From IMG/VR virus record IMGVR_UViG_3300031857_000259, positions 1 to 53,332 of that record: a stretch of DNA of 53,332 nt; one strand, 5' to 3'. The DNA comes from a virus. Numbering within the stretch: the first letter of the stretch is position 1; every line of letters begins with the position of its first letter. Positions 17,133 through 47,747 of this stretch are shown piece after piece. Under the pieces are notes generated by a model. It made no database searches, had not been told where the DNA came from, and saw only the letters and a list, made by a program, of their open reading frames with translations. Position numbers and translations under genes: made by a program.

Positions 17133-20100
17133 ATGGAAGAGCAATTACTAAAAGAATACGTTGGCACCTATCTTAATCCTAAGTACAACGGTGATTGGGA
17201 TGTAGTTAATTCAAAGTTCCCTGAATTGTCTGGAGTTGATAAGGAGATTTTAAAAGAATATGTTGGGACCTATCTCAACCCTAAATATAATGGAGACTGG
17301 AATGTAGTAAACTCGAAGTTCCCTGAGTTATTCCCAGCAGGTAAATCTTCTGCTGAAAGACCTGTAGCACAGAAACCTTCCGAGCCAGTAAAAAAAAAAG
17401 ATACGGTATCACCATTTGTGGATGGTGGTTCGGAGCTTACAAAGTTTGACCCACGTACTGGTCAGGTTGTACAGGATACCCCTGAGTTTGCCACAGCTAA
17501 GCCTGAGGTAAAGGTCCCGGAGCAGAAGCTACCAGCACGTACTGAGTTTCAGTTCCAGCCAGGAAAGCCATTGCCTGAACAGAAGACAGCACCACTTCCT
17601 AAGTTTGTTGAGGAGCAGTTATCTGCTGTTAAGCCAGAACTTATAGGTAAGACTGAAGAGAATGTTGTACCACAACTTAAGTATCAGTTCGGTCCACTAG
17701 GATTTAAGTTCGAGGAGACTAGAGCTGGAGATTACATGATGGCTACATCTCCATCTGGAGAGTCCATTTATATTTCTTTAGACGTTGTAGACAACAAGGA
17801 AAGGGAGGCTGAAGCCAATAAGCTAAATGCATTTTTAAGAAAGGGTGCCACTACTGTAAAGAACTTATCTACTTTACAGAAGCAGTATACAGACGCTAAT
17901 AAAAAGATTGTATCTCAGAAGGAACTTGATGAGTCTCTAGCAAGCATCAATGCAGAGGAGACAAAAATCTTGGCAAGAAACGCTGAGTTTGTTAAGGCCC
18001 AGAATAAACTAGAGGCAGAGAAAGCACAACTAGAAAGTGTTCCTGTACAGCAAAGAAATAATCCAGCTTACATTGCTAGAGTAAATGACTTTATATCAAG
18101 AGCGGATCAGTTTAGCACAGACTTTCAAGCATTTGCAAAAGATACTGAGGACTTATCAAAGAGAAGTCAGCAATTAAATAAGTCTATAGGAAAGTACACT
18201 GAGATGAAAGCTCAGCAAGGGACTTGGTATGGTGCTGGTTTAAATGCCTTTGCTAACAAGTATATTTATGAAGAGGCCAAAGGGCAGGTTGGTGTAGCTA
18301 TTGATTTTATAGGGGAGATAATTTCACTTACTGGATTACCAATAATGAGTCCAGAAAACTATGAGAAAAACTTCATTGAGCAAGCCAAGAAAGAAGGCAT
18401 AAATGTTACTGAAGGTGAAGACTTTATATCATTGGCTAATAAGCTTGATCCTAAAACCCTTGCTAAGATAGAGAATAGAGTTATAGATGCAGGAAAGAAA
18501 AGTGTAAAGGGAGAGATTATAGGTGGTTTAGATAAGGCTTCTAAGACGATTATGGAATCATCAGGGGTTTCTGCTGATTACTACAGGTCGATTGAAGAGA
18601 CACTTGTCGGAGGGGCCTTGCTTGGCACATTATCATCTATACCAGCTATGGCAGGTGGACCATTAATAAGAACAGTATTGATGGGGACTCAAGTGCTATC
18701 AGGTATAGATGCTGAGATGGCTAACGACCCTGAGTTTGCAGACGTATCAGAGAATGAGAAGTACCTTGTTAAGGGTCCTATTGCAGTAGCTGTTGGTGTA
18801 CTAGAAAGCCTTGGCTTAAGTAACTTACTAAACCAGAAAGGCTTCTTGAATGGCTTAGTTCTTAAGGCTCTAGGCAAGGTAGGTAAAGGTGCTAGTTATA
18901 AAACATTCGGTGAAGTAATTAAGAACGAGATTGATAGTGCTGTAGGAAGAGGAGCATTAACTCTAGGAGCTGGCTTCCTAGCTGAGGCTGAGACAGGTGC
19001 GTTACAGGAAGTAGCTACTATTGGCATCAAAGAAATTTATAACATGGCTAAGGAGAAGGAGATGTTTGATACTCCTGATTCTGTAGTTCAGTTTATTGAG
19101 CAGGTTGGTAAGGCTAGTTTACAGGAAGGTATTGGGGCTGGTGTATTAAGTATACCTGGATCTGTATCTGCCGCCTATACTGGCAAGGGATTCTTAGGTA
19201 TGGATGATTCTCAGTTTGCTATGTTTGAAAAGATGGCGAACGACTCAAACATTCAGAAGGGATTCGTTGCTAGACTTAAGACTAGAATTAATAATGGTGA
19301 GATTACTGCTGCTGAAGGAAAAGACATACTTAATAATTACAGAAATTCTGTAGGCTTATTCAACTCATTACCTGAGAACCTTGACATGCAAGGTAAGAAG
19401 GAGGCTATGAACTTGCTTAAGGAGAAGCGTGACTTGGAACGTCAGATTGAGGGCAAGGATCAAGCATTGACAGTACCTCAGCGTAATAGAGTAAACGAAA
19501 TTAATAATCAACTAACTAAACTATCAGAAGATGCCATTCAAAAGCAAGCAGCAGGTGAAGTACCTGTACAGCCAGGAGCCACAGTTAGCGAAGAAGTGGC
19601 GCAAGGAGAACCCCAAGCAGAACCTCAAGGCGTTAGCCAAGAAGGTCAAGAAAAAATAAATGACATTGAAAGCAGAAGACAGGAGGAGCTCAGTGCTTAC
19701 GATGAAGAAGGACTTAATGAAGCTTATTCAGTAGGTAGCGATCAAACTGTAGGTGAGTTTATAAATGCCAAGTATGACACAGAACTAGCTGCATTAGAAC
19801 AACCTACTCAGGAGCTAGACTTAGATGGAGAGGTATCCTTACTTGAGCAGTTACTTGCACAGGAGGAGACTGCACCTACTGTATCCGCTGGTATATCAAT
19901 CTCAAGTGATACTGATGTTGAGGAGTTGAGAAATAGAACTCAGTCAAGATCTCAGCAGGCAACAACACCAGAAGATAAGGAGTCTGCAAATACAAGAGTT
20001 AAGATTATTGATACAGCTAAGAAGGCTATTAATACATTGAAGTCTATCTTACCTAATTTTGATATTGTAATACATGAAGATGAGGGTAGCTACAATGCTG

Positions 20101-23100
20101 CCATGTCAGAAGTAAGTGGGGTAGCAGGATCTAGAGGAAACTTCTTTAGTGATACAACTCCTGATGGAAATACGACAGGAAGGATTGATATCAACCTTTC
20201 TAAGGCAAACTCTAGAACAGTAGCTCATGAGATTGCTCATGGTATACTAATAAATACATTTGGAGACAATGCAAACTTGTTCAATGATTTTAGAACAAGA
20301 CTATCTAAGGTACTTAAGGCAGATGCAAACAAGCAGCTAAATGATTTTGCTGATAGGTATGTAGACCCTAATACGGGAGAGCTTCTAGATGTAAACCACG
20401 AGGAGTTCTTGGCTGAGTTAACCGGTATGTTAGAGCAGCAGGAAACCAATGTATCTGTAAGTACAATGCAGAAGGTTGCTGCGTTAATTAATGAGTTTAT
20501 ATCTAAGATTACAGGTGGTAAGTTCAAACCTTTTGAGGATACTAAGAACACCAAGGATGTAGTCGACTTCTTCAATACCATATCTGAGTCTATCCGCAAA
20601 GGAGAAGATATAGAACTAAATGGTGGAGGTGAGGTAGGTACATTTAACTTTATTTCAAGAAGCAGTTTAGATGTAAAAGAAGCTCCTAGTGTAGCGAATG
20701 ATAATAGGTCTTTCATCAGAGATTTAGTCGAGGATATCGACATGATAGATTTTAATGGAAGAAAGTTTGTCACCAATATGTATGACTACACTACTGCTGG
20801 GATTGCTGACTTGGGAAATGGTCTTAGTATAAATATGATGGGTGGCAAAAACTATGTGCCATACATGATGTCTTTACAGGACAAGAAAATAGGAGACGTT
20901 TCTAATCTAGCCGCATTCAATACCAAGGCACAAGCAGAATCCTTCGCACGTAATGCAATAAAAGGGGACGCATCCTTGTTTGCACCACACTCAGGTACAC
21001 TATCTGAGTCTTGGCAGTTTCAGCAGCACACGTTTGCAGAACTTGTGAACTTGGTTATAGATAAAAATATAATGAGTGATGCTGAATTGATTGATGTATT
21101 TAATAAAACAATTAATTCAAAGGCTAATAAAAAAGCTTTCAATGCATTTAAAAACAAGTATGGGAAAGACATCTCTAATTTTGATTCGTTTAAGGATGAC
21201 CCTAAAAAAATAGTAGAGTTATTAGATATTAAAAATAATTATTCTCCAAACTTAAGGAAGGCTCTCAACAATGCTATATCAGCAGACAAGACTTTCCAAA
21301 AGGCCATAGGTATAAAAAACAAAGAAGAGTTTTTTAAAAGAATAATGGACCCTCTTAATGATGGTGTAAAGGGAGGAGAGATAATTAACGTGGTTGAATT
21401 TGATCCTAAAACATTTCAAATAGTTCAAACAAAAGCAGGTGCTATAGACCATCACCCTTCATTTGGGTGGTCTATTCTATCCAAAATAAATGGGATATAT
21501 CAGCCTACTAAATTTTACCAATCAAGTAATGTAACTGATAGTTATGTTAAGTATAATAAGTCAGGCGAGCAGGTATCAAGAAAGGCTGAAGAAAGTAACT
21601 TTGAGAAGAAGAATGTATCATCAAGCGCAGGTTCAATTCCAAAAGTTGCAGAATTTAATGAGCCTTCAGACGTAGATACTCCAAGCTCAAAGCGTATATC
21701 AAGATCTCAAATAAATGACGCACTATCAAAGGCATCTGGATCAACACAAGTTGCAACTACAAAGGGCAGTTATAGAAAGGCTGCAAATATTTTAAAGAAT
21801 ATTGGTGTAGATGGTGATGTCCTAGACTATGGAGCAGGGCTTGGATTAGGGACTGATGCCATGAGTGAGGTCCTTGATAAGCCTGTTGATTCATTAGAAA
21901 TTAATCCAGAAAGATGGAAGGGAATTAGGCCAGTAAAATATACTGATGCCAATCAAATAGATAAGAAGTATGATGGAATAGTATCCTTGAATGTAGTGAA
22001 TGTAGTTCCAAAAGAAGTAAGGGACTTCATTGTTCTTGACATATTTAATAATCTTAAGGAAGGTGGAACTGCTATTATAAGTTCAAGAGGATTTAAAGGA
22101 GACATTGATGGTGCTAAAAACTTTGTCGATGGAGGTGAAGAAAAAAGCTACATAATAAAAAAGAGAGAGAAGGGCAAATTTATTTATGTATTCCAAAAGG
22201 GATATGATGGTAATGAGTTGTTTGAATATGTTAAAGGCTTATTAGGAGACTCTGCTGAAGTAGTATCTAACAATACATTTGGTAAAAGAGGAGTTGTAAT
22301 AACTAAACTTAGCAATGTAAAAAGCAGATCTCAATTACCTGGCAATGATGCACAGAGAATAGTTAATCTAGGACGTGCTAATGGTTTGTCTGATCAAGCG
22401 ATATCAAACGTATTGGAGAAGCGTGGCTTCACTCAAGAAGCCATTGACACTGCATTAGGTAAGGAAGCAAAGGCTGCCAAGAAGGTTGAGGTAACTGAGG
22501 AGTTTGCTCCTGGGTATAACAGAGTACTCAATAACATGTTCGGTGAAAAGGGTGTAGTAGCCAAGTCACGCAGACGTGGTGTATCTAAGGAAGATACAAT
22601 TAAAAATGCTATTAACTACTTACAGGGCACTAAGGTATATGAGAACGCTACTGATGTACAGCGTGAGGCTATGGTCCGCAATGTAAACAAGGAGCTTGAG
22701 AAGCGTGAGAAGCGTGCTCCTAGTGCTAAGAAGGTATTGGGCCAGAAGAAAGACGTTGTAACAATCACCGTTGATTTAGCTAAGGAAAGAGATAGAATCA
22801 TTAAGGAACAGATAAAACTAGCAAAGGAAGTTACTGGTGACCTTAACGAGAAGAGAGCAGCATTAGCTGATGCCATACGTATGTTTGAAGATGGAGGAGT
22901 TATAACGACTGCTCAAACTAAGACCATAGTAAATAGAATTAGTAAGGTCAATCTAAATAATCCTATCATGGTAGATAGGTTGCTTGCATACATTGAGAAA
23001 GTATTCGACAATGCAAACTATGCTGCTGACATGGATGAGCTAAGAAAGCTACAGCGTCAGGCTAGGTCTAGAAACCATACCTCAATGACTAACGTAGTCA

Positions 23101-26100
23101 AACAGTTCACGTCTATCAACCCTGAGAACATCCCACTAGATAGAATACAAGACTATAAGAAAGCACTTGACTTCTTAAACAACCTAACCCCATTCTATGG
23201 GGAGATGAATGATGTGCTTGATGAGATGTTGTCCTATCAGGTATCTGAAGAGTTCGATGCTATCAAAACATTAGAGGCTCTTGAGAAGAAGTATGAAAGT
23301 ATACAGCTTAATGAAGTAGGCAGTGTAGAAGAGTACAGGAATTTAATAAAAGACATCAACTCCTTTAAGAGAAAAGCATTCCAGTTACTACAGAACGAAG
23401 CTATTAATCAGAAGGATTATGATGACCTAATCAATATGGTTGGTAAGGATCAAGCTGAGTTAGAGAAGAGATATAAAGAAGAAATCACTCATATAAAGAA
23501 GGACTTCATTGCTGAGATAAAGAATCAGCGACCAAAGGTAAGCAGAGACTTTAGTAATGTAGAAAACGATTTGATTCGTAAGTACCTAGAGCTTAGCGAT
23601 GCTGACCTTGAGAGTCTATCTCCTGAGGAGCTATTCATCTTGAATGATTTGCTAGAGAACATTAGCAATGGGGAGATTGATGTATCTAGATTTGCGCCTA
23701 TTGTTTCAAAAGCTTATACAAGTAGTGGGCTTGATCCACTCGCTAAACAAATTAACAAATCTAAGTTTAACAAGAACTCAGAGGAAGGTAGACAAGAACT
23801 TGCTGAACAAGAGAGCTCATTCTGGGAAGGTCTTCTTGGCATGGGTCGTGCTAAGGTTGGGGCACTACAGAAGTTAATTATATCTCCATTCAATAGGGCT
23901 ATTTCATCTTTTGAGAAGTTTAACAGAGAGGGATACAATGAATTCTTAAAGCTTAAGAATAAGTATAAGATTGATAAGTTTGATCTATTAAAGAATTCTA
24001 AGGATATGCATAAGATAGGGATGCTAACCACATACCTACAGGAGTACATGGCTCAGTTTGATTCCAAGAATAAGGACGTTAAGGATATAGGCAAACGGGA
24101 TTGGTTTAAGGAGATACTTAACAGCAGGGCAATGAGAGATAACTACTCATCTGGTAAACCATCTGTATTCAAATCAATTGGATTAGGTAAGTCTGAATTA
24201 GATATCATTAAGGAAATCTGGGATAGCCTACCAAAAGATAAGGATGGTAATGTAGATCCTAAGGCGGTATATGATAGCTACATGGCTAACGATGGTAAGT
24301 TCTTTACCAAAAATCAGAAAGCATTCTTTGATGATGTGATGGCATACAAGGCATCTGAAATTACACCAAAACAAAAGTTTGCTAATGAGCTTAGTGGTGC
24401 TTCATTCAAGGAGATTCCATTCCATATGATGAGAGTTAGACTTGACAAAGGTAAAAGTCAGATTGCACCAACCTCATCTTCAGAGAATAATAACGTGAGG
24501 ATAACTGCTGGTACTGGTAAAGAGAGGGTAAGCGAAAATGTGGGGGCTGTTATGACTAACTTTGAGAAGCTATTTATATCAGGTATAGAGCAGACTGGGC
24601 GTGATTATTTCTTATCTAATGCACTACAAGATATCAACAACACTATTTCAGGTGTAAAGAAAATAGTTGGTGATAGTAAAATAGAGTTGATTAACACCAT
24701 ATCGTATACATTATCTGACGCATTAAAATTTGAGTTTGATAGAACTAAGAGCAACTTTATATTTAGGAACTTGTTGTCAGCGAGGGCAGCTCAGACATTG
24801 TTAAGACCTATTAGGACTGCTGTTGAACTTGGGTCAACACTTGTATCTTATCCGGTTCGAGCTAAAACTTTATCAGGATACAAGTCATTGTTCGGTGAAC
24901 AAGGGTCTATGAAAAAACTTCTTGAGTTTACAGATAGCCCTATGTTGCTTAGAGATAATATTAGTAAGGCTATTGATATTAACGATGGAAGTATTGAACC
25001 ACAGAGTAGATTTACTAAGGCCACTAACTACCTATCTGGTCTGCCTGAAAGGACAATGATGGTGACCTCATGGATGCCAACATTCAAGTCAGAATTTAAG
25101 ACCATTACTGGTATAGACTTTGACATTAATAAGTTTAATAATAGCGAAGCATACAGAGAGAAGTATGGTAAGGCTATTAGGGAATCATCAGCAGCGGCAG
25201 ATGCTCAGACTGAGAAGATTATTGGACCAACTACCAAAGCAGGACAAAGACGTGAGGTTAGAATAGCCCCAAGGTTCTTAGCTAATCTTGTTGGATCTGA
25301 AGGTACTGTATCAAAGAACACCGCAACCGGACAGATCTTAGGATTCTTCAGTAACTATCCATTCAGGGAGTCAACAGAATTTCTAAATGGATTTAGAGAA
25401 GCAGCAGAGGTGTTGAATGATGAAGGTGCCTTGAGTTCATTGAGTCAATTACAAAAGCCCCTAGGGGTGGCTTTGAACGTGGCTGCTTATAGCTTCCTTT
25501 CATCTGCAACATATGCATTAGGATTAATACTTCTTGGAGATGATGAAGATGAGAAGAGAGGTGAAGACCTTTTAAAAGCTTTATTAACAGGAGAGGGATT
25601 ATTAGAAGAGTTAAAATCAAATGCTATATCCCTTGCAGGAAGTCAGTATGCGGCTGGAGGAAAGGCCATAATTCAATTAGCGGTTACCATATTAATTGAA
25701 TCTACAGATGACGAGAAGCTAAAGGCTAAATATAAAAAGCTACTTAAGGATAGTGTATTCATTGATCCACTACCGGTAGATAAGGTGGTAGGATTTAAGG
25801 GAGAGCAGGAGGTAGCTGGTGCAATAGGAAAATATATCCCTCCGTTTATAGTCGCATACGCTAGGTATGCTGACTTAATCGGAACTAAAAACGAGCTCAA
25901 ATATATATACGATAAGGTAGAAAGTAAAGGTGTCGAGAGCTTAACAGAAGATGAAGGTCTTAAGATACTTGCTTTGAATACATTATTCAATGGTACTCAA
26001 ATAGTACTAAACCTATACGGAACATCCCTACCTGAATACAACAACATCAAGACTTACATGAAGAAACTTAAGGGAGAGGCAGGAGTAGCTGAAGTATACA

Positions 26101-26315
26101 AGGGAGAAGCACCTGCCAAGAAGAAGTCATCTGGTGGAAGTGGCGGTGGCAGAACTAAGACCATCAACAAGTCTGACCTTAAGAGGTACTACCCTGGTCT
26201 TAGCAAGCAATTAGAGTCTGCTACGTATGAAGTAGAGCAGGAAGTAAAAGCATTCGAGAAGGAGCAGAGAGAGTTTAAAAAGAAGATGAAGGACCAGTTA
26301 TATGGTGGGGACTAA
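17133..26315 (+). CDS. Giant polyvalent virion protein with zincin peptidase and methyltransferase domains
   Basis: 3060 aa, about 17% of the window. N-terminus: a 27-residue unit, 'LKEYVGTYLNPKYNGDW' plus ten residues, occurs twice (residues 6-32 and 40-66) with one difference. A Pro/Lys/Glu-rich linker and coiled coils follow, then hydrophobic Gly/Ala-rich segments at about 490-700. HEIAH at 1032-1036 with a downstream 'NHEEFLAELTGM' (about 1088-1099) is a gluzincin-type zinc site. 'VLDYGAGLGLG' (about 1563-1573) is an AdoMet-binding motif I of a Rossmann methyltransferase, with 'SLEINPERW' after it. The C-terminal 1400 residues are helical, with one hydrophobic stretch near 2785-2805. This fits large polyvalent proteins packaged in phage heads and injected with the DNA, and the T7 gp16 position. 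No RNA polymerase DxDGD motif was found. Confidence 0.7.
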   Translation: MEEQLLKEYVGTYLNPKYNGDWDVVNSKFPELSGVDKEILKEYVGTYLNPKYNGDWNVVNSKFPELFPAGKSSAERPVAQKPSEPVKKKDTVSPFVDGGSELTKFDPRTGQVVQDTPEFATAKPEVKVPEQKLPARTEFQFQPGKPLPEQKTAPLPKFVEEQLSAVKPELIGKTEENVVPQLKYQFGPLGFKFEETRAGDYMMATSPSGESIYISLDVVDNKEREAEANKLNAFLRKGATTVKNLSTLQKQYTDANKKIVSQKELDESLASINAEETKILARNAEFVKAQNKLEAEKAQLESVPVQQRNNPAYIARVNDFISRADQFSTDFQAFAKDTEDLSKRSQQLNKSIGKYTEMKAQQGTWYGAGLNAFANKYIYEEAKGQVGVAIDFIGEIISLTGLPIMSPENYEKNFIEQAKKEGINVTEGEDFISLANKLDPKTLAKIENRVIDAGKKSVKGEIIGGLDKASKTIMESSGVSADYYRSIEETLVGGALLGTLSSIPAMAGGPLIRTVLMGTQVLSGIDAEMANDPEFADVSENEKYLVKGPIAVAVGVLESLGLSNLLNQKGFLNGLVLKALGKVGKGASYKTFGEVIKNEIDSAVGRGALTLGAGFLAEAETGALQEVATIGIKEIYNMAKEKEMFDTPDSVVQFIEQVGKASLQEGIGAGVLSIPGSVSAAYTGKGFLGMDDSQFAMFEKMANDSNIQKGFVARLKTRINNGEITAAEGKDILNNYRNSVGLFNSLPENLDMQGKKEAMNLLKEKRDLERQIEGKDQALTVPQRNRVNEINNQLTKLSEDAIQKQAAGEVPVQPGATVSEEVAQGEPQAEPQGVSQEGQEKINDIESRRQEELSAYDEEGLNEAYSVGSDQTVGEFINAKYDTELAALEQPTQELDLDGEVSLLEQLLAQEETAPTVSAGISISSDTDVEELRNRTQSRSQQATTPEDKESANTRVKIIDTAKKAINTLKSILPNFDIVIHEDEGSYNAAMSEVSGVAGSRGNFFSDTTPDGNTTGRIDINLSKANSRTVAHEIAHGILINTFGDNANLFNDFRTRLSKVLKADANKQLNDFADRYVDPNTGELLDVNHEEFLAELTGMLEQQETNVSVSTMQKVAALINEFISKITGGKFKPFEDTKNTKDVVDFFNTISESIRKGEDIELNGGGEVGTFNFISRSSLDVKEAPSVANDNRSFIRDLVEDIDMIDFNGRKFVTNMYDYTTAGIADLGNGLSINMMGGKNYVPYMMSLQDKKIGDVSNLAAFNTKAQAESFARNAIKGDASLFAPHSGTLSESWQFQQHTFAELVNLVIDKNIMSDAELIDVFNKTINSKANKKAFNAFKNKYGKDISNFDSFKDDPKKIVELLDIKNNYSPNLRKALNNAISADKTFQKAIGIKNKEEFFKRIMDPLNDGVKGGEIINVVEFDPKTFQIVQTKAGAIDHHPSFGWSILSKINGIYQPTKFYQSSNVTDSYVKYNKSGEQVSRKAEESNFEKKNVSSSAGSIPKVAEFNEPSDVDTPSSKRISRSQINDALSKASGSTQVATTKGSYRKAANILKNIGVDGDVLDYGAGLGLGTDAMSEVLDKPVDSLEINPERWKGIRPVKYTDANQIDKKYDGIVSLNVVNVVPKEVRDFIVLDIFNNLKEGGTAIISSRGFKGDIDGAKNFVDGGEEKSYIIKKREKGKFIYVFQKGYDGNELFEYVKGLLGDSAEVVSNNTFGKRGVVITKLSNVKSRSQLPGNDAQRIVNLGRANGLSDQAISNVLEKRGFTQEAIDTALGKEAKAAKKVEVTEEFAPGYNRVLNNMFGEKGVVAKSRRRGVSKEDTIKNAINYLQGTKVYENATDVQREAMVRNVNKELEKREKRAPSAKKVLGQKKDVVTITVDLAKERDRIIKEQIKLAKEVTGDLNEKRAALADAIRMFEDGGVITTAQTKTIVNRISKVNLNNPIMVDRLLAYIEKVFDNANYAADMDELRKLQRQARSRNHTSMTNVVKQFTSINPENIPLDRIQDYKKALDFLNNLTPFYGEMNDVLDEMLSYQVSEEFDAIKTLEALEKKYESIQLNEVGSVEEYRNLIKDINSFKRKAFQLLQNEAINQKDYDDLINMVGKDQAELEKRYKEEITHIKKDFIAEIKNQRPKVSRDFSNVENDLIRKYLELSDADLESLSPEELFILNDLLENISNGEIDVSRFAPIVSKAYTSSGLDPLAKQINKSKFNKNSEEGRQELAEQESSFWEGLLGMGRAKVGALQKLIISPFNRAISSFEKFNREGYNEFLKLKNKYKIDKFDLLKNSKDMHKIGMLTTYLQEYMAQFDSKNKDVKDIGKRDWFKEILNSRAMRDNYSSGKPSVFKSIGLGKSELDIIKEIWDSLPKDKDGNVDPKAVYDSYMANDGKFFTKNQKAFFDDVMAYKASEITPKQKFANELSGASFKEIPFHMMRVRLDKGKSQIAPTSSSENNNVRITAGTGKERVSENVGAVMTNFEKLFISGIEQTGRDYFLSNALQDINNTISGVKKIVGDSKIELINTISYTLSDALKFEFDRTKSNFIFRNLLSARAAQTLLRPIRTAVELGSTLVSYPVRAKTLSGYKSLFGEQGSMKKLLEFTDSPMLLRDNISKAIDINDGSIEPQSRFTKATNYLSGLPERTMMVTSWMPTFKSEFKTITGIDFDINKFNNSEAYREKYGKAIRESSAAADAQTEKIIGPTTKAGQRREVRIAPRFLANLVGSEGTVSKNTATGQILGFFSNYPFRESTEFLNGFREAAEVLNDEGALSSLSQLQKPLGVALNVAAYSFLSSATYALGLILLGDDEDEKRGEDLLKALLTGEGLLEELKSNAISLAGSQYAAGGKAIIQLAVTILIESTDDEKLKAKYKKLLKDSVFIDPLPVDKVVGFKGEQEVAGAIGKYIPPFIVAYARYADLIGTKNELKYIYDKVESKGVESLTEDEGLKILALNTLFNGTQIVLNLYGTSLPEYNNIKTYMKKLKGEAGVAEVYKGEAPAKKKSSGGSGGGRTKTINKSDLKRYYPGLSKQLESATYEVEQEVKAFEKEQREFKKKMKDQLYGGD

Positions 26316-36100: not shown

Positions 36101-36343
36101 TTAGTTATCTGATAATTCTGTGAATTGGGTAAAGCCCTCTGCCATCTGAAGCAGATGATTGGTTGCTAGTAGCAGTAAGATGTTGTAGTCCACACATTTG
36201 TGCATCATCTCGCTTACTTTACTCACCCTATCCATCTCCCCACTAGATAGTAGGGTTAGGATCGTGGCTAACTGAGAAGCATACTTGTGCTGCTCCACTC
36301 CTAGTGATTCCACTAGGGAGATTGCTTCGTGATTGAATGTCAT
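36101..36343 (-). CDS. Hypothetical helical protein
   Basis: 80 aa, predicted all-helical, with a hydrophobic central part ('YNILLLLATNHLLQMAEG'). One base upstream of the alpha-CTD-like gene, so co-translation with it is likely. No family recognised. Confidence 0.55.
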   Translation of the reverse strand: MTFNHEAISLVESLGVEQHKYASQLATILTLLSSGEMDRVSKVSEMMHKCVDYNILLLLATNHLLQMAEGFTQFTELSDN

Positions 36344-36723
36344 TTGTCTATTAAGTTTGAGAATTGTGCAACAATAAACTGCTCGTAGTTAAACATACTT
36401 TCCTTCATTGGGATGGATTCATACATCTCCCTAAGTTTATAACCATTATGTCCCATGTATTCATACATTACCTCAAGTACATCCGAATCCAAATCATCAA
36501 CCCATAGCGGAGTATTTTCCCCTACATAAGCATTGAAAGTATTGTACTCTAGGTAGTCTATTGCATCCTCATAAGACATGTCTTCATTCTGAACCAAAAT
36601 ATCTACACATTTTCTCCTAGAGTATACCACCTTCCACATGTTAGGCTCGAACCCAATGATCGCATCATCAAATCCATCCGCAAATAGTACCTCATCGTAT
36701 GATTCTAAAATCTTATCTCTCAT
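36340..36723 (-). CDS. Conserved hypothetical protein
   Basis: 127 aa. The ATG at 36723 overlaps the upstream stop as ATGA, which favours it over one 18 nt upstream. 'DDAIIGFE', 'VVYSRRKCVDIL', 'MSYEDAIDYLEYNTFNAYVG' then 'TPLWVDDL' define a small family of phage and bacterial proteins in which a Y-x-x-x-N-x-x-x-A-Y-x-G motif recurs, from memory. Function not known. Confidence 0.6.
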   Translation of the reverse strand: MRDKILESYDEVLFADGFDDAIIGFEPNMWKVVYSRRKCVDILVQNEDMSYEDAIDYLEYNTFNAYVGENTPLWVDDLDSDVLEVMYEYMGHNGYKLREMYESIPMKESMFNYEQFIVAQFSNLIDK

Positions 36724-36926
36724 TTGATTTTTCTTTTCCATTCTGCTACAATTTTAGTTGCCTCGTATAGTGCATCGGCACATTCACCTATGCCCATGTC
36801 CTCGTTGGACATTATCCATTGGTAGATCTCTTCCACCAACATCTGCTCATGCTCCTCTCGGATCTCCTTGAGCCTCTTAATTTCGCTTCTGAGAAAGTCA
36901 TTCTCTAATCCTTCAATTGTCTTCAT
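36720..36926 (-). CDS. Small coiled-coil protein
   Basis: 68 aa; the first 40 residues form a charged amphipathic helix ('LRSEIKRLKEIREEHEQMLV'). Overlaps the upstream gene by 14 nt in another frame and the next by ATGA. Unknown function. Confidence 0.5.
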   Translation of the reverse strand: MKTIEGLENDFLRSEIKRLKEIREEHEQMLVEEIYQWIMSNEDMGIGECADALYEATKIVAEWKRKIK

Positions 36927-42687: not shown

Positions 42688-42707
42688 TATTCCTGATGTA
42701 TTGAGAG

Positions 42708-42733
42708 AGCCATTCTTCGGGATGGCTTTTTTT
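42708..42733 (+). terminator. UUCG-tetraloop intrinsic terminator
   Basis: 8-bp stem (AGCCATTC/GGATGGCT, one G-U) closed by TTCG, followed by six T's. The T tract runs directly into the -33 TTTG of the GroEL promoter. Confidence 0.9.
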
Positions 42734-42760
42734 GTTTTATATAAAATTTCTTTAGATTTG
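42731..42760 (+). promoter_or_regulatory. Promoter of the phage groEL gene
   Basis: TTTG (42731-42734), 18 nt, TAGATTTG (42753-42760): both Bacteroidota promoter elements with a normal spacer, 16 nt before the ATG at 42777. Confidence 0.75.
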
Positions 42761-42776
42761 GTAAAATTTAATTCAA

Positions 42777-44390
42777 ATGGAATACTCACCTAAAGATTTA
42801 GTGTTCGCCCAGGAGGGCAGGCTAAAGTTAATTTCTGGCATCAAGAAGATTGCTGGAGCGGTCAAGAGTACGTTGGGACCTTACGGTAACACGGTGCTTA
42901 TTGAGAGTCCTAACCACACGCATGGTATTACGGTAACTAAGGATGGTGTAACTGTCGCTAAGTCGGTTGACCTGATTGATCCTGTTGAGAACCTTGCGGT
43001 TAAGATGATGAAGGAGGCTGCGGATAGAACGGCTACCTCTGCTGGTGATGGCACGACTACTGCCATAGTGTTGACTGAGGGTTTGGTGCTTGGATGGTTA
43101 GAGCACATTGGTGCAGGCCAGACAGAGCTCAATACCACTGAGGTGCTGCGCAACATATCTGAGCTAAGTTCAAAAGTGATTGAGGGGTTGAAGAAGAAGG
43201 GCAAGAAGGTGACTAACTCAATGCTGCTTGACGTGGCAACAATCTCTGCGAACAATGACAGCCAGATCGGTCGCATTATTGCTGAGGTGTACAAGGAGGT
43301 CGGCAAGACTGGGATTGTAACGGTGGAGCGTAGCCAGACAAATGAGACCTATGCTGAGACCACTAAGGGTCTAAAGATTGACAGGGGGTATACAAGCCCA
43401 TTGTTCATCAACGATCAGAGCAGAGACGAGTGCGTATTTGAGGACGTGCATGTGCTGGTGGCTGACATTGAGATAAGTAACATCTTGCAGATTGAGAACA
43501 TTCTAAAGCCAATCATTACTGATGGGAAGAAGCTACTCATTGTATCGCCATGCCATGTGAACGTTGTGAATACATTGGCTGCAAATGTTATGAAGAACAA
43601 CCTAAAGATCTGCGTGGTACAACCACCTAGCTTTGGGTATCGACAGCATGAGCTGATGCAGGACCTGGCGGTGAGTGTAGGAGCGACATACTTCAGTGAG
43701 AAGACCGGAGATGACCTGAGTCAAATTACTATTGAGGACCTGGGGCATGCAGCCAGAGTAGTGGTTAGCAATGACAAGACCATCATTCTTAAGTCAGACT
43801 TGAGAATAGACCCAGTCAAGGTAGAGGAGCGAGTAGCTCAGCTATGGCAGTCACATAAGATTGCTAAGAGGAAGGCTGACAAGGACCACCTATTAGATCG
43901 GATTGCTTCGCTTACAGGTGGCATTGGTGTGATATACGTAGGTGGACAGACTGACCTAGAGCAGAAGGAGCTGTACGACCGTGTTGACGATGCGGTGTGT
44001 GCTGTGCGTAGTGCACTAGAGGAGGGCATCCTTCCAGGTGCCGGCAAGGCATTGCTAGATGAGACAGCTACTCTCATTCCAACTGGTAGCTTCCACTACA
44101 GCCCTGAGATGAGTGTGGCGATTAAAATCCTATCCAATGCGATGATGGCACCGTTCCAACAAATCCTTGCAAACGCTGGCCTAAAGCCTAGTGACGTGTA
44201 CAAGGATGGGGCTGAGATTGGTCATGGGTACAACCTAAAGACCGGGCAGATGGGTGACCTGATTAAGATGGGGGTGATTGACCCACTGAAGGTGACACGT
44301 ACTGCGTTGCAGAACGCTGTGAGTGTAGCGACAACTATTCTGAGCACTAACGCCATCATTACGATGGCTAGATCATACGAGACTAAGTAA
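42777..44390 (+). CDS. groEL: Phage-encoded GroEL chaperonin (group I)
   Basis: 537 aa, close to the usual 540-550 aa. Recognisable blocks: 'TLGPYGNTVLIE' (32-43), 'VTKDGVTVAKSVDL' (53-66), the ATP loop 'AGDGTTTAIVL' (89-99), and the C-terminal equatorial 'YDRVDDAVCAVRSALEEG', whose Asp (near 403) matches the catalytic D398 of E. coli GroEL. The E. coli 'GGG' motif is 'GAG' here and the protein ends at 'ARSYETK', lacking the Gly-Gly-Met tail. It would form the folding cage for phage (or host) proteins, with the GroES at 46999 as lid. Its own promoter; the gene is notably GC-richer than the neighbouring early genes. Rare in phages. Confidence 0.95.
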   Translation: MEYSPKDLVFAQEGRLKLISGIKKIAGAVKSTLGPYGNTVLIESPNHTHGITVTKDGVTVAKSVDLIDPVENLAVKMMKEAADRTATSAGDGTTTAIVLTEGLVLGWLEHIGAGQTELNTTEVLRNISELSSKVIEGLKKKGKKVTNSMLLDVATISANNDSQIGRIIAEVYKEVGKTGIVTVERSQTNETYAETTKGLKIDRGYTSPLFINDQSRDECVFEDVHVLVADIEISNILQIENILKPIITDGKKLLIVSPCHVNVVNTLAANVMKNNLKICVVQPPSFGYRQHELMQDLAVSVGATYFSEKTGDDLSQITIEDLGHAARVVVSNDKTIILKSDLRIDPVKVEERVAQLWQSHKIAKRKADKDHLLDRIASLTGGIGVIYVGGQTDLEQKELYDRVDDAVCAVRSALEEGILPGAGKALLDETATLIPTGSFHYSPEMSVAIKILSNAMMAPFQQILANAGLKPSDVYKDGAEIGHGYNLKTGQMGDLIKMGVIDPLKVTRTALQNAVSVATTILSTNAIITMARSYETK

Positions 44391-44393
44391 GCG

Positions 44394-44627
44394 ATGGACA
44401 CAATACTAAACCCATTTGGGCACGGACAAGCAATCAGAGTGATTGACGAGAACCATAAGGTGTGGCCTAAGTACCTCAGCACTGCTGTGGTGTACGATGA
44501 GAATGAGTTCTATGTGCTGTTCGAGGATGGGCTGCTAGTGAAGAAGGTCCGCTCTAAGTTCACTACAAGCCAGTACATCAATGGTGAGCGGTTCAAGACG
44601 TTAAGAGAACACTATGGAACAACTTAA
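44394..44627 (+). CDS. Hypothetical protein downstream of groEL
   Basis: 77 aa, starts 3 nt after the groEL stop. 'KYLSTAVVYDENEFYVLFED' and a basic C-terminal half suggest a small SH3-like beta barrel, but no family is recognised. Likely co-transcribed with groEL. Confidence 0.6.
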   Translation: MDTILNPFGHGQAIRVIDENHKVWPKYLSTAVVYDENEFYVLFEDGLLVKKVRSKFTTSQYINGERFKTLREHYGTT

Positions 44628-44709
44628 GAAGATGGCATTCACTGTAGGGCTAGCACTGCTATTCGCATTGCTAGTCATATGGTGGTATGAGTTCCTTAAA
44701 ATAAACTAA
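44614..44709 (+). CDS. Tiny single-pass membrane protein
   Basis: 31 aa; 'MAFTVGLALLFALLVIWWY' is a transmembrane helix with Lys residues before it. Overlaps the preceding gene by 14 nt and ends 1 nt before the next ATG. Unknown role. Confidence 0.5.
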   Translation: MEQLKKMAFTVGLALLFALLVIWWYEFLKIN

Positions 44710-44710
44710 G

Positions 44711-44968
44711 ATGGAGGCACCATTTGCAATTAAAGTAGGCGAGGTACTTGAGCATATTGAGAGGATGCTCATTGAGAAGAACCGGAAGTACGGCAATTCT
44801 GCATTAGAGCCGCTTGGGGTGTTCAGTCAGTTGTCCGCAAAAGAAGGACTACTGGTGCGAATCGATGACAAACTAAAGCGAATCAAGAACGGGAGCTTGG
44901 ATAAGGACGATGAGGACGTGGTGAATGACCTGATTGGATACCTAGTGCTGCTAAAGATTAGTGGATAA
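44711..44968 (+). CDS. Nucleotide modification associated domain 1 (DUF1599)-like protein
   Basis: 85 aa, all helical. 'EKNRKYGNSALEPLGVF', 'VRIDDKLKRIKNG' and 'DEDVVNDLIGYLVLLK' match the pattern (K-N-x-x-Y-G-x-S ... R-x-x-D-K-x-x-R ... D-x-x-x-D-L-x-G-Y) of the DUF1599/Nmad1 family, helical phage proteins related to MazG-like nucleotide pyrophosphatases and linked to DNA-modification gene sets. No other modification enzyme is in the window. The 85-aa form is minimal for the family. Confidence 0.6.
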   Translation: MEAPFAIKVGEVLEHIERMLIEKNRKYGNSALEPLGVFSQLSAKEGLLVRIDDKLKRIKNGSLDKDDEDVVNDLIGYLVLLKISG

Positions 44969-45033
44969 CGTAAAATATATTTTACAAATGAGTGACATAT
45001 TATTCATTGTGCTTTACATTATGGGTTAATGCA

Positions 45034-45088
45034 TGAGATATGTCTCAAATATTGTCAATTTTTGAGACAGAACTCGGATGATATCCGA
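45034..45088. promoter_or_regulatory. Cluster of inverted repeats in a convergent intergenic gap
   Basis: Three nested or adjacent dyads: TGAGA-N4-TCTCA (45034-45047), TGTCTCAAA-N11-TTTGAGACA (45041-45069, perfect 9-bp arms) and TCGGAT-GAT-ATCCGA (45074-45088). Two can be alternative structures of one transcript because they share the TCTCA arm. Lies between the + 85-aa gene and the - 178-aa gene. Confidence 0.6.
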
Positions 45089-45110
45089 ATTGTATAATAA
45101 AAAAAAAATG

Positions 45111-45145
45111 ACCCAAGAGCAGATCCTACGGTATGCTACTTGGGT
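45111..45145. terminator. Hairpin between convergent genes
   Basis: ACCCAAG pairs with CTTGGGT over a 21-nt loop; the + side is followed by ACTTTTAG and the - side by a T-run (9 A's on the + strand at 45100-45109). A possible bidirectional terminator, better on the - strand. Confidence 0.45.
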
Positions 45146-45149
45146 ACTT

Positions 45150-45686
45150 TTAGAATAACTTTTTACTTACTCCTAAGCTGTGAATCTTTGTCACGGGTTG
45201 GTATTGGTACTCGAAGATATACTTGTTGTCCAAGTATGAAGCTTTAACACCTGGGTCTAGTAGAGAGTTTACTCCTACTCCTAGGTAAATACCCCTTGGT
45301 TTCTGTATAATTGTACGAGTTTCTGTGTTGGTAACAGTGTTAGTTACCACAGGTATTTTAAAATCGTTCGTAACGCTCATTTTAAGTACCTCTCCGAGGA
45401 CTTCTCCATTCACGTAGGTGTTACCATACTCGAAAGGTGTCGTTGAACTGAAGGCATTTATAGTAGGTGTATGGCCAACTAAGATTGTATCCCTAAGAAT
45501 CTCTGTTTTGATTTCTTTTTTAGGGATATAAACTGTCGACACTTTGTCGACAAACAAAGTATCGGTTTCTGTTACAGTTGTAAACTTATAAATCTCTTCT
45601 GCTTCAGGCTTAGGGTAGATAATAATCGTAAGGATTGCACCTATTAAGAATGAAATGATTGCGATTTGTATTTTTTTATCCTCCAT
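45150..45686 (-). CDS. Membrane-anchored hypothetical protein (DUF6808-like)
   Basis: 178 aa. N-terminal anchor 'IAIISFLIGAILTIIIYP' (about residues 8-25), then an extracytoplasmic part with Thr/Val/Glu-rich helical or strand region and a C-terminal part 'YLGVGVNSLLDPGV' ending in Phe. The architecture resembles DUF6808 phage/conjugative-element proteins, remembered from Bacteroidota. Unknown role at the envelope. ATGs overlap with the upstream gene by one base. Confidence 0.5.
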   Translation of the reverse strand: MEDKKIQIAIISFLIGAILTIIIYPKPEAEEIYKFTTVTETDTLFVDKVSTVYIPKKEIKTEILRDTILVGHTPTINAFSSTTPFEYGNTYVNGEVLGEVLKMSVTNDFKIPVVTNTVTNTETRTIIQKPRGIYLGVGVNSLLDPGVKASYLDNKYIFEYQYQPVTKIHSLGVSKKLF

Positions 45687-45907
45687 TATTGTTCTATAAA
45701 TAAATTGTCCTCTGCTAGTATTTTTCTTAGCTCCTCACGGCACCATTTATAGGCCTGATAAGTTTCGTCAGATAGTTCCTTGTACTTCATTTCAGAACGA
45801 AGTAGTTGGTCAAAGTCCCATATGGCACTACAATAATTACTTCCATTAATAGCGGCTTTAAAGTCGCTGTTATCTTCAGGTAAATTAAATTCTAGTACTG
45901 CTTTCAT
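45686..45907 (-). CDS. Conserved small hypothetical protein
   Basis: 73 aa. The ATG at 45907 overlaps the phosphoesterase stop by ATGA and is preferred over one 15 nt upstream. 'MKAVLEFNLPEDNSDFKAAI' and 'SAIWDFDQLLRSEMKY' form a small family common in Bacteroidota phages, from memory. Function unknown. Confidence 0.65.
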   Translation of the reverse strand: MKAVLEFNLPEDNSDFKAAINGSNYCSAIWDFDQLLRSEMKYKELSDETYQAYKWCREELRKILAEDNLFIEQ

Positions 45908-46785
45908 AGTGGAAACTTGCAACTATCTACTAATAATTCATAATTTCTAAAGTCTTTCTTGTGTATATCCTTACCAGATAGGGTAAGTATCCTTCCTCCT
46001 GTAGGTTTGACAGGAGCACCACGCTCTACGTGCCAGCCAAATGCCCCATCTTGGTACTCTTCCTTGTAAGATCCCGTGATTGCCATGTGAATCTGCTTGT
46101 GAACAATCTCATGTACATGCTTTCCAGGATTAAATTGAATAGCATCACGAACATCGTTACGGCTAGAGTTCTCATGTATGTGACCCATGATAAATATGTC
46201 CATGTTTTCGTAAATCTCTAAAGCTCTAGTCAAGTTAATAGCTCCCTTTGTAACTATTCCACCACCACCTGATCCATGGAAGTACTTCAAATTTTTTGAG
46301 AGTACAGTGTTACCATTTAGATTATACTTAATGACTAACCATCCGCCATATCCACCAGTATAAACACTTGTCTTGTTGGTATAGTTGAGCAGATCAACGA
46401 ACCGTTGTAACGGATCGGTCTCTAGGTTCTTAATGATTGCAGTCTCGTGGTTGCCATACCCAATAACTGTGAGTAGATGTGCGTACGGAGACCAATAATC
46501 TACTGCATCTTCAATAACTGCATCTATATAATTTGCTTTATTGTGTTCAGGCAGAATATCCTTCTTGTTTCTTCTTGGATCGTACTTACCCTGCATTAAA
46601 CAAAAGAAATCACCGTTGATAAAAATAGGGATATTATTTTTTTTGCAGTAGTCTAGGTGATCCTTTAGCTTTTCTCTATCACACTTTGGATTATCCCAGT
46701 GCACATCTGATAGTAATGCTAACTTTGTCTCTTCTCTTGTAAGTTCAAGGACGTGAACATTTCTGCTAATCTTTTTTAGATCCAT
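45904..46785 (-). CDS. Calcineurin-like metallophosphoesterase
   Basis: 293 aa with the complete metal-binding set: 'LLSDVHWDN' (D27, H29), 'INGDF' (D59), 'YGNHE' (N112, H113), 'KYFHGSG' (H170) and 'MGHIHENS' (H202, H204). The fold uses two metal ions to hydrolyse phosphoesters; phage members may act on nucleotides, RNA/DNA 3' phosphates or proteins, and sequence does not decide. First gene of a three-gene - strand unit; upstream is an 85-bp divergent promoter region. Confidence 0.85.
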   Translation of the reverse strand: MDLKKISRNVHVLELTREETKLALLSDVHWDNPKCDREKLKDHLDYCKKNNIPIFINGDFFCLMQGKYDPRRNKKDILPEHNKANYIDAVIEDAVDYWSPYAHLLTVIGYGNHETAIIKNLETDPLQRFVDLLNYTNKTSVYTGGYGGWLVIKYNLNGNTVLSKNLKYFHGSGGGGIVTKGAINLTRALEIYENMDIFIMGHIHENSSRNDVRDAIQFNPGKHVHEIVHKQIHMAITGSYKEEYQDGAFGWHVERGAPVKPTGGRILTLSGKDIHKKDFRNYELLVDSCKFPL

Positions 46786-46870
46786 CAGAAGCTTATTTGT
46801 TGTCCATAAAGTTACTATTATTTTTTATTTTACAAATTACTTTTTATATTGGAAACATAAAAATAATCTT

Positions 46871-46987
46871 ATGGCACTAAATCAAAGAGATTATCAGAAC
46901 TTCATAGATGGACTTCTGATAGGGGTTGTATTCGGGGTAGTTGTTTCTAGTATCTTGTTTCTAGTCTTTAGAGGAGTATCTTTGTAA
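46871..46987 (+). CDS. Tiny single-pass membrane protein upstream of groES
   Basis: 38 aa, polar 'MALNQRDYQNFIDG' then a transmembrane helix 'LLIGVVFGVVVSSILFLVF'. Its last codons contain the -7 box of groES. Divergent from the metallophosphoesterase. Unknown role; a holin- or lysis-regulator type small protein is possible. Confidence 0.5.
   Translation: MALNQRDYQNFIDGLLIGVVFGVVVSSILFLVFRGVSL
46977..46984 (+). promoter_or_regulatory. -7 box TATCTTTG before groES
   Basis: Exact TAnnTTTG, 14 nt before the ATG at 46999; a TTG at 46955-46957 gives a 19-nt spacer. Confidence 0.6.
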
Positions 46988-46998
46988 AAAAAATACGC

Positions 46999-47256
46999 AT
47001 GAAGGCGATAGGCAAAAACATTGTAATCAAATCTATTGACGAGGAAGTTAAGACTTCTTCAGGATTAATTCTATCTGGTGAGGATACAAACCAATTACGC
47101 TACAAGCGTGGAGTAGTAATCAACTCAGGCACAGACGTTCATAACATTAAGGCTGGGGATGAGGTGTACTACGACAAGGCGAATAGCTATGTGATGATCA
47201 TCAATGATGAGCACTGCGTAATTATTCAGGAACGTGACGTAGTTCTTGTCCTGTAA
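46999..47256 (+). CDS. groES: Phage-encoded GroES co-chaperonin
   Basis: 85 aa (cellular GroES about 95). 'KAIGKNIVIKSIDEE', mobile loop 'KTSSGLILSGEDTNQ' with the GroEL-binding tripeptide L-I-L in place of I-V-L, then 'KRGVVINSG', 'IKAGDEVYYDKAN' and 'CVIIQERDVVLVL'. Compared with E. coli GroES about nine residues are missing between 'VINSG' and 'AGDEV', the place of the roof beta-hairpin; T4 gp31 also lacks it, which widens the dome of the cage. 2.6 kb from groEL with a separate promoter. Its 3' end overlaps the wHTH gene on the other strand by 35 bp. Confidence 0.92.
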   Translation: MKAIGKNIVIKSIDEEVKTSSGLILSGEDTNQLRYKRGVVINSGTDVHNIKAGDEVYYDKANSYVMIINDEHCVIIQERDVVLVL

Positions 47257-47698
47257 GTCTATTCTCCTTTAGTTCCTCATTCATAGTGATAATCATATTC
47301 CTGTAGACCTTGTCAGAGAACCTTACGTTCTTCTTGAACATGGGATTGTTACACATTGTCTCAGGAATTTCTTCTCCTTCCAACTTTTTGTAGATTGAGT
47401 TAATCATTCTCTTTGCCTTATAGGAAAGGCAGTACATTGCCTTAGATCTCATGGCAGGTCTACCCTTTTGCCTGCTTGCAAATAGTTCAATCCATCCTTC
47501 ATCCTTGAGTCGGTAGAATCTTTTTTTGTCCCAGATAAATATTTTTTCATATTGTCTGAAGGTGGTAATATTAAAGTAGCGTTCTGAGTATAGGTACAGA
47601 AGCATGTCTAGGTCTGCTTGGCTGAGATTATGCCTTACCTTAAAGTATTCACGGATTACTTTCCAGAATTTCAGGTAGTCTCTTTTATTTGATTTCAT
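47222..47698 (-). CDS. Winged-helix (MarR-like) DNA-binding protein
   Basis: 158 aa from the ATG at 47698 (an upstream non-ATG codon would extend it into the promoter). Helical N-terminus ('RDYLKFWKVIREYFKVRH'), then 'LSQADLDMLLYLYSERYF', a recognition-helix region 'WDKKRFYRLKDEGWIELF' and a basic wing 'ASRQKGRPAMRS', the order of a MarR-type wHTH. It is transcribed from a promoter that overlaps the promoter of the divergent late block, so it probably regulates itself and those genes. Remembered as a widespread Bacteroidota phage family. Confidence 0.65.
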   Translation of the reverse strand: MKSNKRDYLKFWKVIREYFKVRHNLSQADLDMLLYLYSERYFNITTFRQYEKIFIWDKKRFYRLKDEGWIELFASRQKGRPAMRSKAMYCLSYKAKRMINSIYKKLEGEEIPETMCNNPMFKKNVRFSDKVYRNMIITMNEELKENRLTGQELRHVPE

Positions 47699-47715
47699 TT
47701 TTATTATTACATTTG
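47689..47715 (+). promoter_or_regulatory. + strand promoter of the small basic protein block
   Basis: TTG (47689-47691), 16 nt, TACATTTG (47708-47715); first ATG at 47749. It overlaps the start of the wHTH gene and its promoter. Confidence 0.6.
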
Positions 47716-47719
47716 TAAA

Positions 47720-47747
47720 CAAAGGTATCACATTTAAACAATAACAA
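47720..47747 (-). promoter_or_regulatory. - strand promoter of the wHTH gene
   Basis: On the - strand, TTG (47747-47745), 17 nt, TACCTTTG (47727-47720), 21 nt before the ATG at 47698. The two divergent -7 boxes are only 4 bp apart, so both promoters cannot be occupied at once. Confidence 0.6.

Follow-up and report, generated by a model that had tools for sequence, protein, structure and literature searches.

A GroEL/GroES chaperonin pair in a lineage of uncultivated podovirus-like phages, and its separation by a gene cassette in one sub-clade

The chaperonin locus

The IMG/VR virus record IMGVR_UViG_3300031857_000259, analysed here as a stretch of 53,332 base pairs (bp) that we call the window, encodes both the barrel (GroEL) and the lid (GroES) of a group I chaperonin. 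The two genes are located on the + strand, groEL first, and are separated by 2608 bp, and a preliminary description of the same DNA had already recognised a complete pair 2.6 kb apart with - strand genes between its halves. We consider it likely that the genes form a vertically inherited, phage-adapted GroEL and GroES pair, which is one of the core components of its lineage's genomes and folds phage proteins.

The identity of both genes is clear from profile searches. The groEL product matches Pfam Cpn60_TCP1 (E=5.1e-59) over residues 25-530 of its 537 amino acids (aa) and positions 1-488 of the 490 in the profile, a full-length architecture, as well as PHROG 5725 'chaperonin groEL' (E=4.6e-133), and its matches among solved structures are bacterial GroELs (best E=1.6e-112). 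For groES, the matches are Pfam Cpn10 (E=5e-11), PHROG 3188 (E=1.3e-14) and, among solved structures, Cpn20 and Thermus cpn10. The gap contains two + strand open reading frames (ORFs) of 77 and 85 aa and three - strand ORFs of 178, 78 and 293 aa, the latter being regarded as real genes because they are conserved in all 17 relatives with a comparable gap. In the list below these relatives (gaps >2 kb) are called split, and the five gap genes are referred to as the cassette.

42703-42732: terminator-like stem upstream of groEL
42731-42760, + strand: Bacteroidota-type promoter-like element before groEL, TTTG-N18-TAGATTTG
42777-44390, + strand: groEL, group I chaperonin large subunit, 537 aa (Pfam, PHROG, ATP-site residues, substitution rates)
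44394-44627, + strand: 77-aa ORF, cassette member, co-directional with groEL (tblastn: 17 split loci, 0 non-split)
44711-44968, + strand: 85-aa ORF, cassette member (PHROG 1485, function unknown)
45150-45686, - strand: 178-aa ORF, cassette member, with an N-terminal hydrophobic segment by sequence reading (17/17 split loci, none elsewhere)
45686-45922, - strand: 78-aa ORF, cassette member (17/17 split loci, none elsewhere)
45904-46785, - strand: 293-aa calcineurin-like metallophosphoesterase, cassette member (Pfam Metallophos E=8e-5; PHROG 7339 'DNA repair exonuclease' E=2e-14)
46871-46987, + strand: 38-aa small ORF with a hydrophobic stretch, immediately 5' of groES (sequence reading)
46955-46984, + strand: promoter-like element before groES, TTG-N19-TATCTTTG, overlapping the end of the small ORF
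46999-47256, + strand: groES, co-chaperonin, 85 aa, mobile loop GLIL, no roof hairpin (Pfam Cpn10, AlphaFold, Foldseek)
47222-47731, - strand: 169-aa gene convergent with groES and overlapping its 3' end (PHROG 17028, function unknown)

Distribution of the pair among phages

A megablast search of window positions 30001-53332 against phage records gave zero matches, and relatives were therefore sought via proteins. From a GroEL scan of IMG/VR the best 80 of 238 relatives were kept (72-97% identity), and these 80 loci, together with the Manatee Spring genome ctfjg026 and one Elemovirus, make up the 82 relatives considered here, 17 of them split and 65 non-split. Both genes are present in all 82, with groES always downstream of groEL on the same strand and a gap ranging from 2 bp to 3.5 kb. 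This order is the reverse of the bacterial operon, where groES lies directly upstream of groEL, so that the locus was rightly described as departing from the bacterial arrangement. A scan started from the GroES side agreed with the GroEL-side scan. When the search was started from the capsid protein, which is common to 20/20 tested records of the lineage, 8 of 19 records carried groEL and the identical 8 carried groES; the five records that reach 54 kb or more are all among these 8. The 169-aa neighbour gene was looked for in six groEL-less capsid records; since it is lacking in all six, the groEL-less records are probably fragments.

Among GenBank phages, both subunits are encoded by Elemovirus, immuto, Callevirus, DAC23 (whose groES is unannotated and was recognised by alignment) and Maribacter phage Panino. 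A viral structure library additionally holds an 85-aa 'Co-chaperonin GroES [uncultured virus]' (A0A221S3G2) that is 62% identical to the window GroES. The order of the subunit genes in virioplankton chaperonins is reportedly tied to GroEL phylogeny, a finding ascribed to Marine et al. in 2017. The preliminary description regarded such a pair as rare among phages, a claim that is unsupported because all 82 relatives and the cultured flavophages carry both genes. GroEL has furthermore been reported from 36 environmental genomes of putative Flavobacteriaceae phages (PMC5332604), and cpn10 is a core gene of the Pervagoviridae (PMC8776804).

Active site and ancestry of the phage GroEL

The residues for ATP and Mg binding and for hydrolysis (TLGP, D52, D87, T89-T91, D398 and D495) are invariant in 80/80 members of the lineage, the sole difference in the ATP site being G415A. 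By comparison, the majority residue of the phage lineage differs from the bacterial one at 118 of 263 bacterially conserved positions (45%). Against this 45% background only 1/20 ATP-site positions is replaced (P=7e-5), and the phage GroEL has therefore very probably retained ATP hydrolysis. Both genes are under purifying selection, with ratios of non-synonymous to synonymous substitution rates (dN/dS) of 0.04-0.15 for groEL and 0.04-0.13 for groES, and the lineage GroELs are free of stops. The intact ATP loop and catalytic Asp noted in the preliminary description are borne out by D52, D87 and D398, and with an intact ATP site under purifying selection the GroEL is probably active, as had been predicted.

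It could be argued that the genes were recently captured from a host and are dispensable or decaying. Such captures do occur in other phages, as the GroELs of DAC23, a Bacteroides phage, and of Vibrio phage 2.275 nest in host clades; for the same reason, the tree in which they do so is able to detect host capture. In this tree the lineage GroELs are placed on a long phage-only stem outside bacteria (support 100/100), and the best bacterial GroEL identity is 41% among the matches listed in a scan of ~85,000 species genomes. Placement inside a host clade with decay, or loss of ATP-site residues, had been named beforehand as the mark of a captured, non-functional gene; the tree, the dN/dS values well below 1 and the alignment give neither, which makes recent capture very improbable. 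On these comparisons the GroEL is an old, vertically inherited phage lineage rather than a recent acquisition from a host. The placement of the Elemovirus GroEL differs between two trees, and long branches meet there.

Ring contacts, tail and the roofless lid

The residues that form the inter-ring contacts in bacteria are replaced at 4/4 positions (K105E, A109E or T, R452Q and E461K; P=0.04), and V464D is found in addition; at position 109, the majority residue of the lineage is E and the window has T. The C-terminal GGM tail is present in 0/80 lineage members versus 28/34 bacteria. Double-ring contacts and a GGM tail are usual and not family-defining, and membership of the GroEL family therefore stands. 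The GroEL of the Flavobacterium phage immuto (L086) is much closer to bacteria overall, with 56/263 conserved positions replaced, yet it has lost 4/4 inter-ring contacts as well, and hence phage GroELs may have tended repeatedly to lose these contacts. Three of the four positions are lost in each of two further phage GroELs, those of Vibrio K469 (L087) and Panino (L088).

The AlphaFold model of the window GroES has a predicted local distance difference test score (pLDDT) of 92 and shows a cpn10 barrel without roof strands; Foldseek returns cpn10 matches with probability 1.00 and T4 gp31 with a template modelling score of 0.69. In the alignment, the roof hairpin (E. coli residues 44-58) has lost ~9 residues and ~2 residues are added to the mobile loop, which carries the hydrophobic tripeptide LIL or similar (I25-V26-L27 in reference numbering). 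The length is 85 aa in 79/83 sequences. The roof hairpin is not a defining feature of the family, since gp31, an accepted GroES-type lid, also lacks it. Position 25 is Leu in 72/83 and Met in 5/83 phage sequences and mostly Ile in the sampled bacteria.

I25L is among the GroES variants that reportedly function together with a single-ring GroEL in E. coli (PMC5575113), and the single-ring GroEL SR1 was made with the four-residue set R452E/E461A/S463A/V464A (PMC5653362). The replaced inter-ring contacts, which overlap with the SR1 set, and the Leu at GroES position 25 make a natural single-ring cycle a testable possibility. That the pair is a natural, phage-specific single-ring GroEL/GroES machine, not interchangeable with that of the host, is a tentative suggestion, and a rewired double ring would be equally compatible with the sequences.

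Near the terminase, ctfjg026 and Elemovirus encode a further protein that bears the annotation co-chaperonin GroES (PHROG 13932, ~187 aa). Homologues (65-78%) occur in 19/20 relatives' records (for example L002:28506-29069 and L331:239-781), and the window is without that part of the genome. The C-terminal half of the protein is weakly GroES-like (hhalign probability 86%), and it may be a degenerate tandem GroES.

Origin of the split

The five-gene cassette is found in 17/17 split loci and in no other locus; in the non-split majority the spacing between groEL and groES is 2 bp to 1.3 kb. In a 95-sequence tree, all split members group together in a single clade that lies within the non-split ones (support 100), and this clade is recovered in a 50-sequence tree under a site-mixture model (support 98/99). 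A small ORF that separates groEL and groES in many non-split relatives is retained next to groES in four split members, and in split relatives including L007, L009, L011, L012 and L016 groES is preceded by a small ORF resembling the 38-aa ORF of the window. These patterns are most simply read as one insertion that interrupted an ancestral groEL-groES unit, after which gene traffic at the site continued.

The gap appears to be a site of such traffic for lysis genes, because Amidase_2 endolysins are located between groEL and groES on either strand, on the + strand in L004, L005, L010, L012 and L021 and on the - strand in L008, L011, L013, L014, L016 and L019 (the Pfam match was checked on one member per endolysin family). 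The metallophosphoesterase is present in 2/27 relatives' whole records, both split. Its relocation from elsewhere in the genome was considered and set aside, as no match was found in the records of 25 non-split relatives, several of which are fragments. Elsewhere in the window, at 36340-36741 (- strand), lies a 133-aa ORF akin to the small ORF between groEL and groES of many non-split relatives; together with the related small ORFs it perhaps represents a small mobile or duplicated family.

On this reading, groEL and groES lay side by side in the ancestral layout, opposed by the convergent 169-aa gene, until a single insertion in the sub-clade of the window placed between them a cassette of ~2.6-3.5 kb, which comprises the metallophosphoesterase, small genes and, in some members, an amidase endolysin. 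The insertion turned groES into a separate transcription unit, and since the split is a single derived event, a separate groES promoter is secondary.

Promoter-like elements before groEL and groES

According to the preliminary description, each gene has its own Bacteroidota-type promoter, which can be upheld for groEL and less firmly for groES. The element TAnnTTTG occurs within 70 nucleotides (nt) of groEL in 70/80 relatives, compared with 6.4% of random 70-nt windows. Before groES it occurs in 11/17 split and 1/65 non-split loci (background 6.4%; Fisher P=1e-8, a value uncorrected for shared descent). In the window, groES needs separate transcription because three - strand genes intervene, and the exact position of its promoter is uncertain. 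The element there overlaps the last codons of the 38-aa ORF, and TATCTTTG was rejected as promoter proof, the same motif being the coding end of another ORF in L004, L005, L010 and L021; owing to this overlap and to the coding position in the four relatives, the evidence for it is weaker. A sigma-70 scan gave 18 promoter-like sites where 15.8 were expected and was thus uninformative.

The same description suggested that the split is adaptive, two promoters allowing the phage to tune the lid-to-barrel ratio. It is true that groES has to be transcribed apart from groEL here and that promoter-like elements precede both genes. However, the split arose once and is limited to one sub-clade, most of the lineage has near-adjacent genes with a groES promoter element in only 1/65 non-split loci, and the groES-proximal element is missing even in 6/17 split loci. 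The cassette genes are moreover unrelated, lysis amidases being among them in some members, and such a mixture would be expected at a hotspot for insertions. Control of the ratio by two promoters is thus unsupported, and we regard the adaptive explanation as improbable.

The virus, its relatives and its host

The window record encodes a portal, structural proteins, a helicase, a primase-like protein with a BT4734-like domain, an exonuclease and an endolysin. The terminase region, which precedes the portal in ctfjg026, is missing, and the genome is therefore probably incomplete by several kb. Adjoining the virion genes is a single 3060-aa ORF (17133-26315, + strand) without a convincing Pfam match. 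The portal and capsid proteins are 76% and 71% identical, respectively, to those of the uncultured podovirus ctfjg026, 46-48% identical to those of Flavobacterium Elemovirus and 34-40% to those of Cellulophaga Callevirus; more remote kin are found in other Cellulophaga and Maribacter phages and, for the portal only, in Tenacibaculum phages. The lineage thus comprises uncultivated podovirus-like phages akin to Elemovirus and Callevirus of flavobacteria. All cultured portal and capsid relatives infect flavobacteria, and TAnnTTTG is an element of the Bacteroidota kind; with this element upstream of groEL, the host is likely a member of the Bacteroidota, probably flavobacterial.

The convergent 169-aa gene gives tblastn matches in 83 loci, including ctfjg026 (45%) and Elemovirus (29%), and no match in a Pfam search. 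It is annotated as 'repressor protein' in ctfjg026, and it is possible that it regulates the chaperonin pair. Defence-system models run against groEL and three neighbouring genes gave no match.

Comparison with known systems

The closest named counterpart is ctfjg026 (Podoviridae sp., MW202828.1, uncultured), with groEL 61% and groES 62% identical to those of the window, the same gene order and the same convergent gene; unlike in the window, groEL and groES are only 16 bp apart and the cassette is absent. Elemovirus (Flavobacterium phages, e.g. MT497078.1), grown on Flavobacterium sp. BAL314, also has groEL followed by groES on one strand with a convergent gene downstream, but the genes are adjacent, the proteins are only 36% (GroEL) and 35% (GroES) identical, and the ATP site of its GroEL differs at 5/20 positions. 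Callevirus (Cellulophaga phi40:1, Calle_2) likewise encodes both subunits, whereas its order is groES - ORF - groEL and its sequences are distant. The bacterial groES-groEL products share the group I chaperonin fold and the ATP site with the window proteins; in contrast to these, they possess the roof hairpin and the GGM tail, and their inter-ring contact residues are the ones replaced in the phage.

T4 gp31 is, like the window GroES, a phage co-chaperonin without roof loops; it differs in acting on the host GroEL and in having a mobile loop of 22 residues, compared with 16 in GroES (PMC6318259). Pseudomonas phage EL gp146, like the window GroEL, is a phage-encoded ATP-dependent chaperonin remote from bacterial GroEL (PMC7185714), but it has many indels relative to GroEL and no known GroES partner.

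Function of the pair

During infection, the phage GroEL ring would use ATP together with the phage's own roofless GroES lid, and the resulting chamber would fold at least one phage protein that is poorly handled by the host chaperonin. The T4 capsid protein requires gp31, and the lack of roof loops in gp31 gives a wider opening that is thought to help the large capsid protein gp23 (PMC6318259). By analogy, the leading candidate for a client would be the 473-aa capsid protein.

Alternatively, the phage GroES could serve mainly as a gp31-like lid for host GroEL, and the phage GroEL could have another task, for example to hold or protect a protein. This would agree with the gp31 precedent (PMC6318259) and the roofless lid, with the chaperonin of phage EL, which fails to bind E. 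coli GroES and showed no encapsulating state (PMC7185714), and with the altered apical groove of the phage GroEL. In the non-split majority the two genes always occur together, in one order and close to each other, which speaks against such a division of labour, and we consider it unlikely.

Several points nevertheless weigh against the favoured proposal of a phage-adapted pair that folds phage proteins. Apical residues that bind GroES and substrate in E. coli are replaced (L234E, E238K, V263A and V264A), and an AlphaFold model of the GroEL built with 31 lineage sequences reached a pLDDT of 56 and was discarded. We infer the co-operation of the two phage subunits only from their co-conservation, and an enlarged or open dome and the timing of action are likewise inferred. 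The client is perhaps a phage protein, with the capsid protein as a best guess, and the likely host is deduced from virion relatives and promoter type. The apical-groove changes were also considered as a sign of special selection, which was rejected since 7/12 positions are replaced, not above the 45% background.

Implications

Because the chaperonin pair occurs throughout the lineage, it is less of a surprise and of greater use as a model. It provides a large natural set of GroEL and GroES sequence pairs in which the ring contacts are altered and the lid has no roof, and such natural variants would open single-ring cycling, lid specificity and cage size to protein chemistry, while cultured relatives (Elemovirus) make gene removal feasible in principle. 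For the biology of these phages, it shows that a complete chaperonin can belong permanently to the core genes of a common phage lineage, instead of being a gene stolen now and then.

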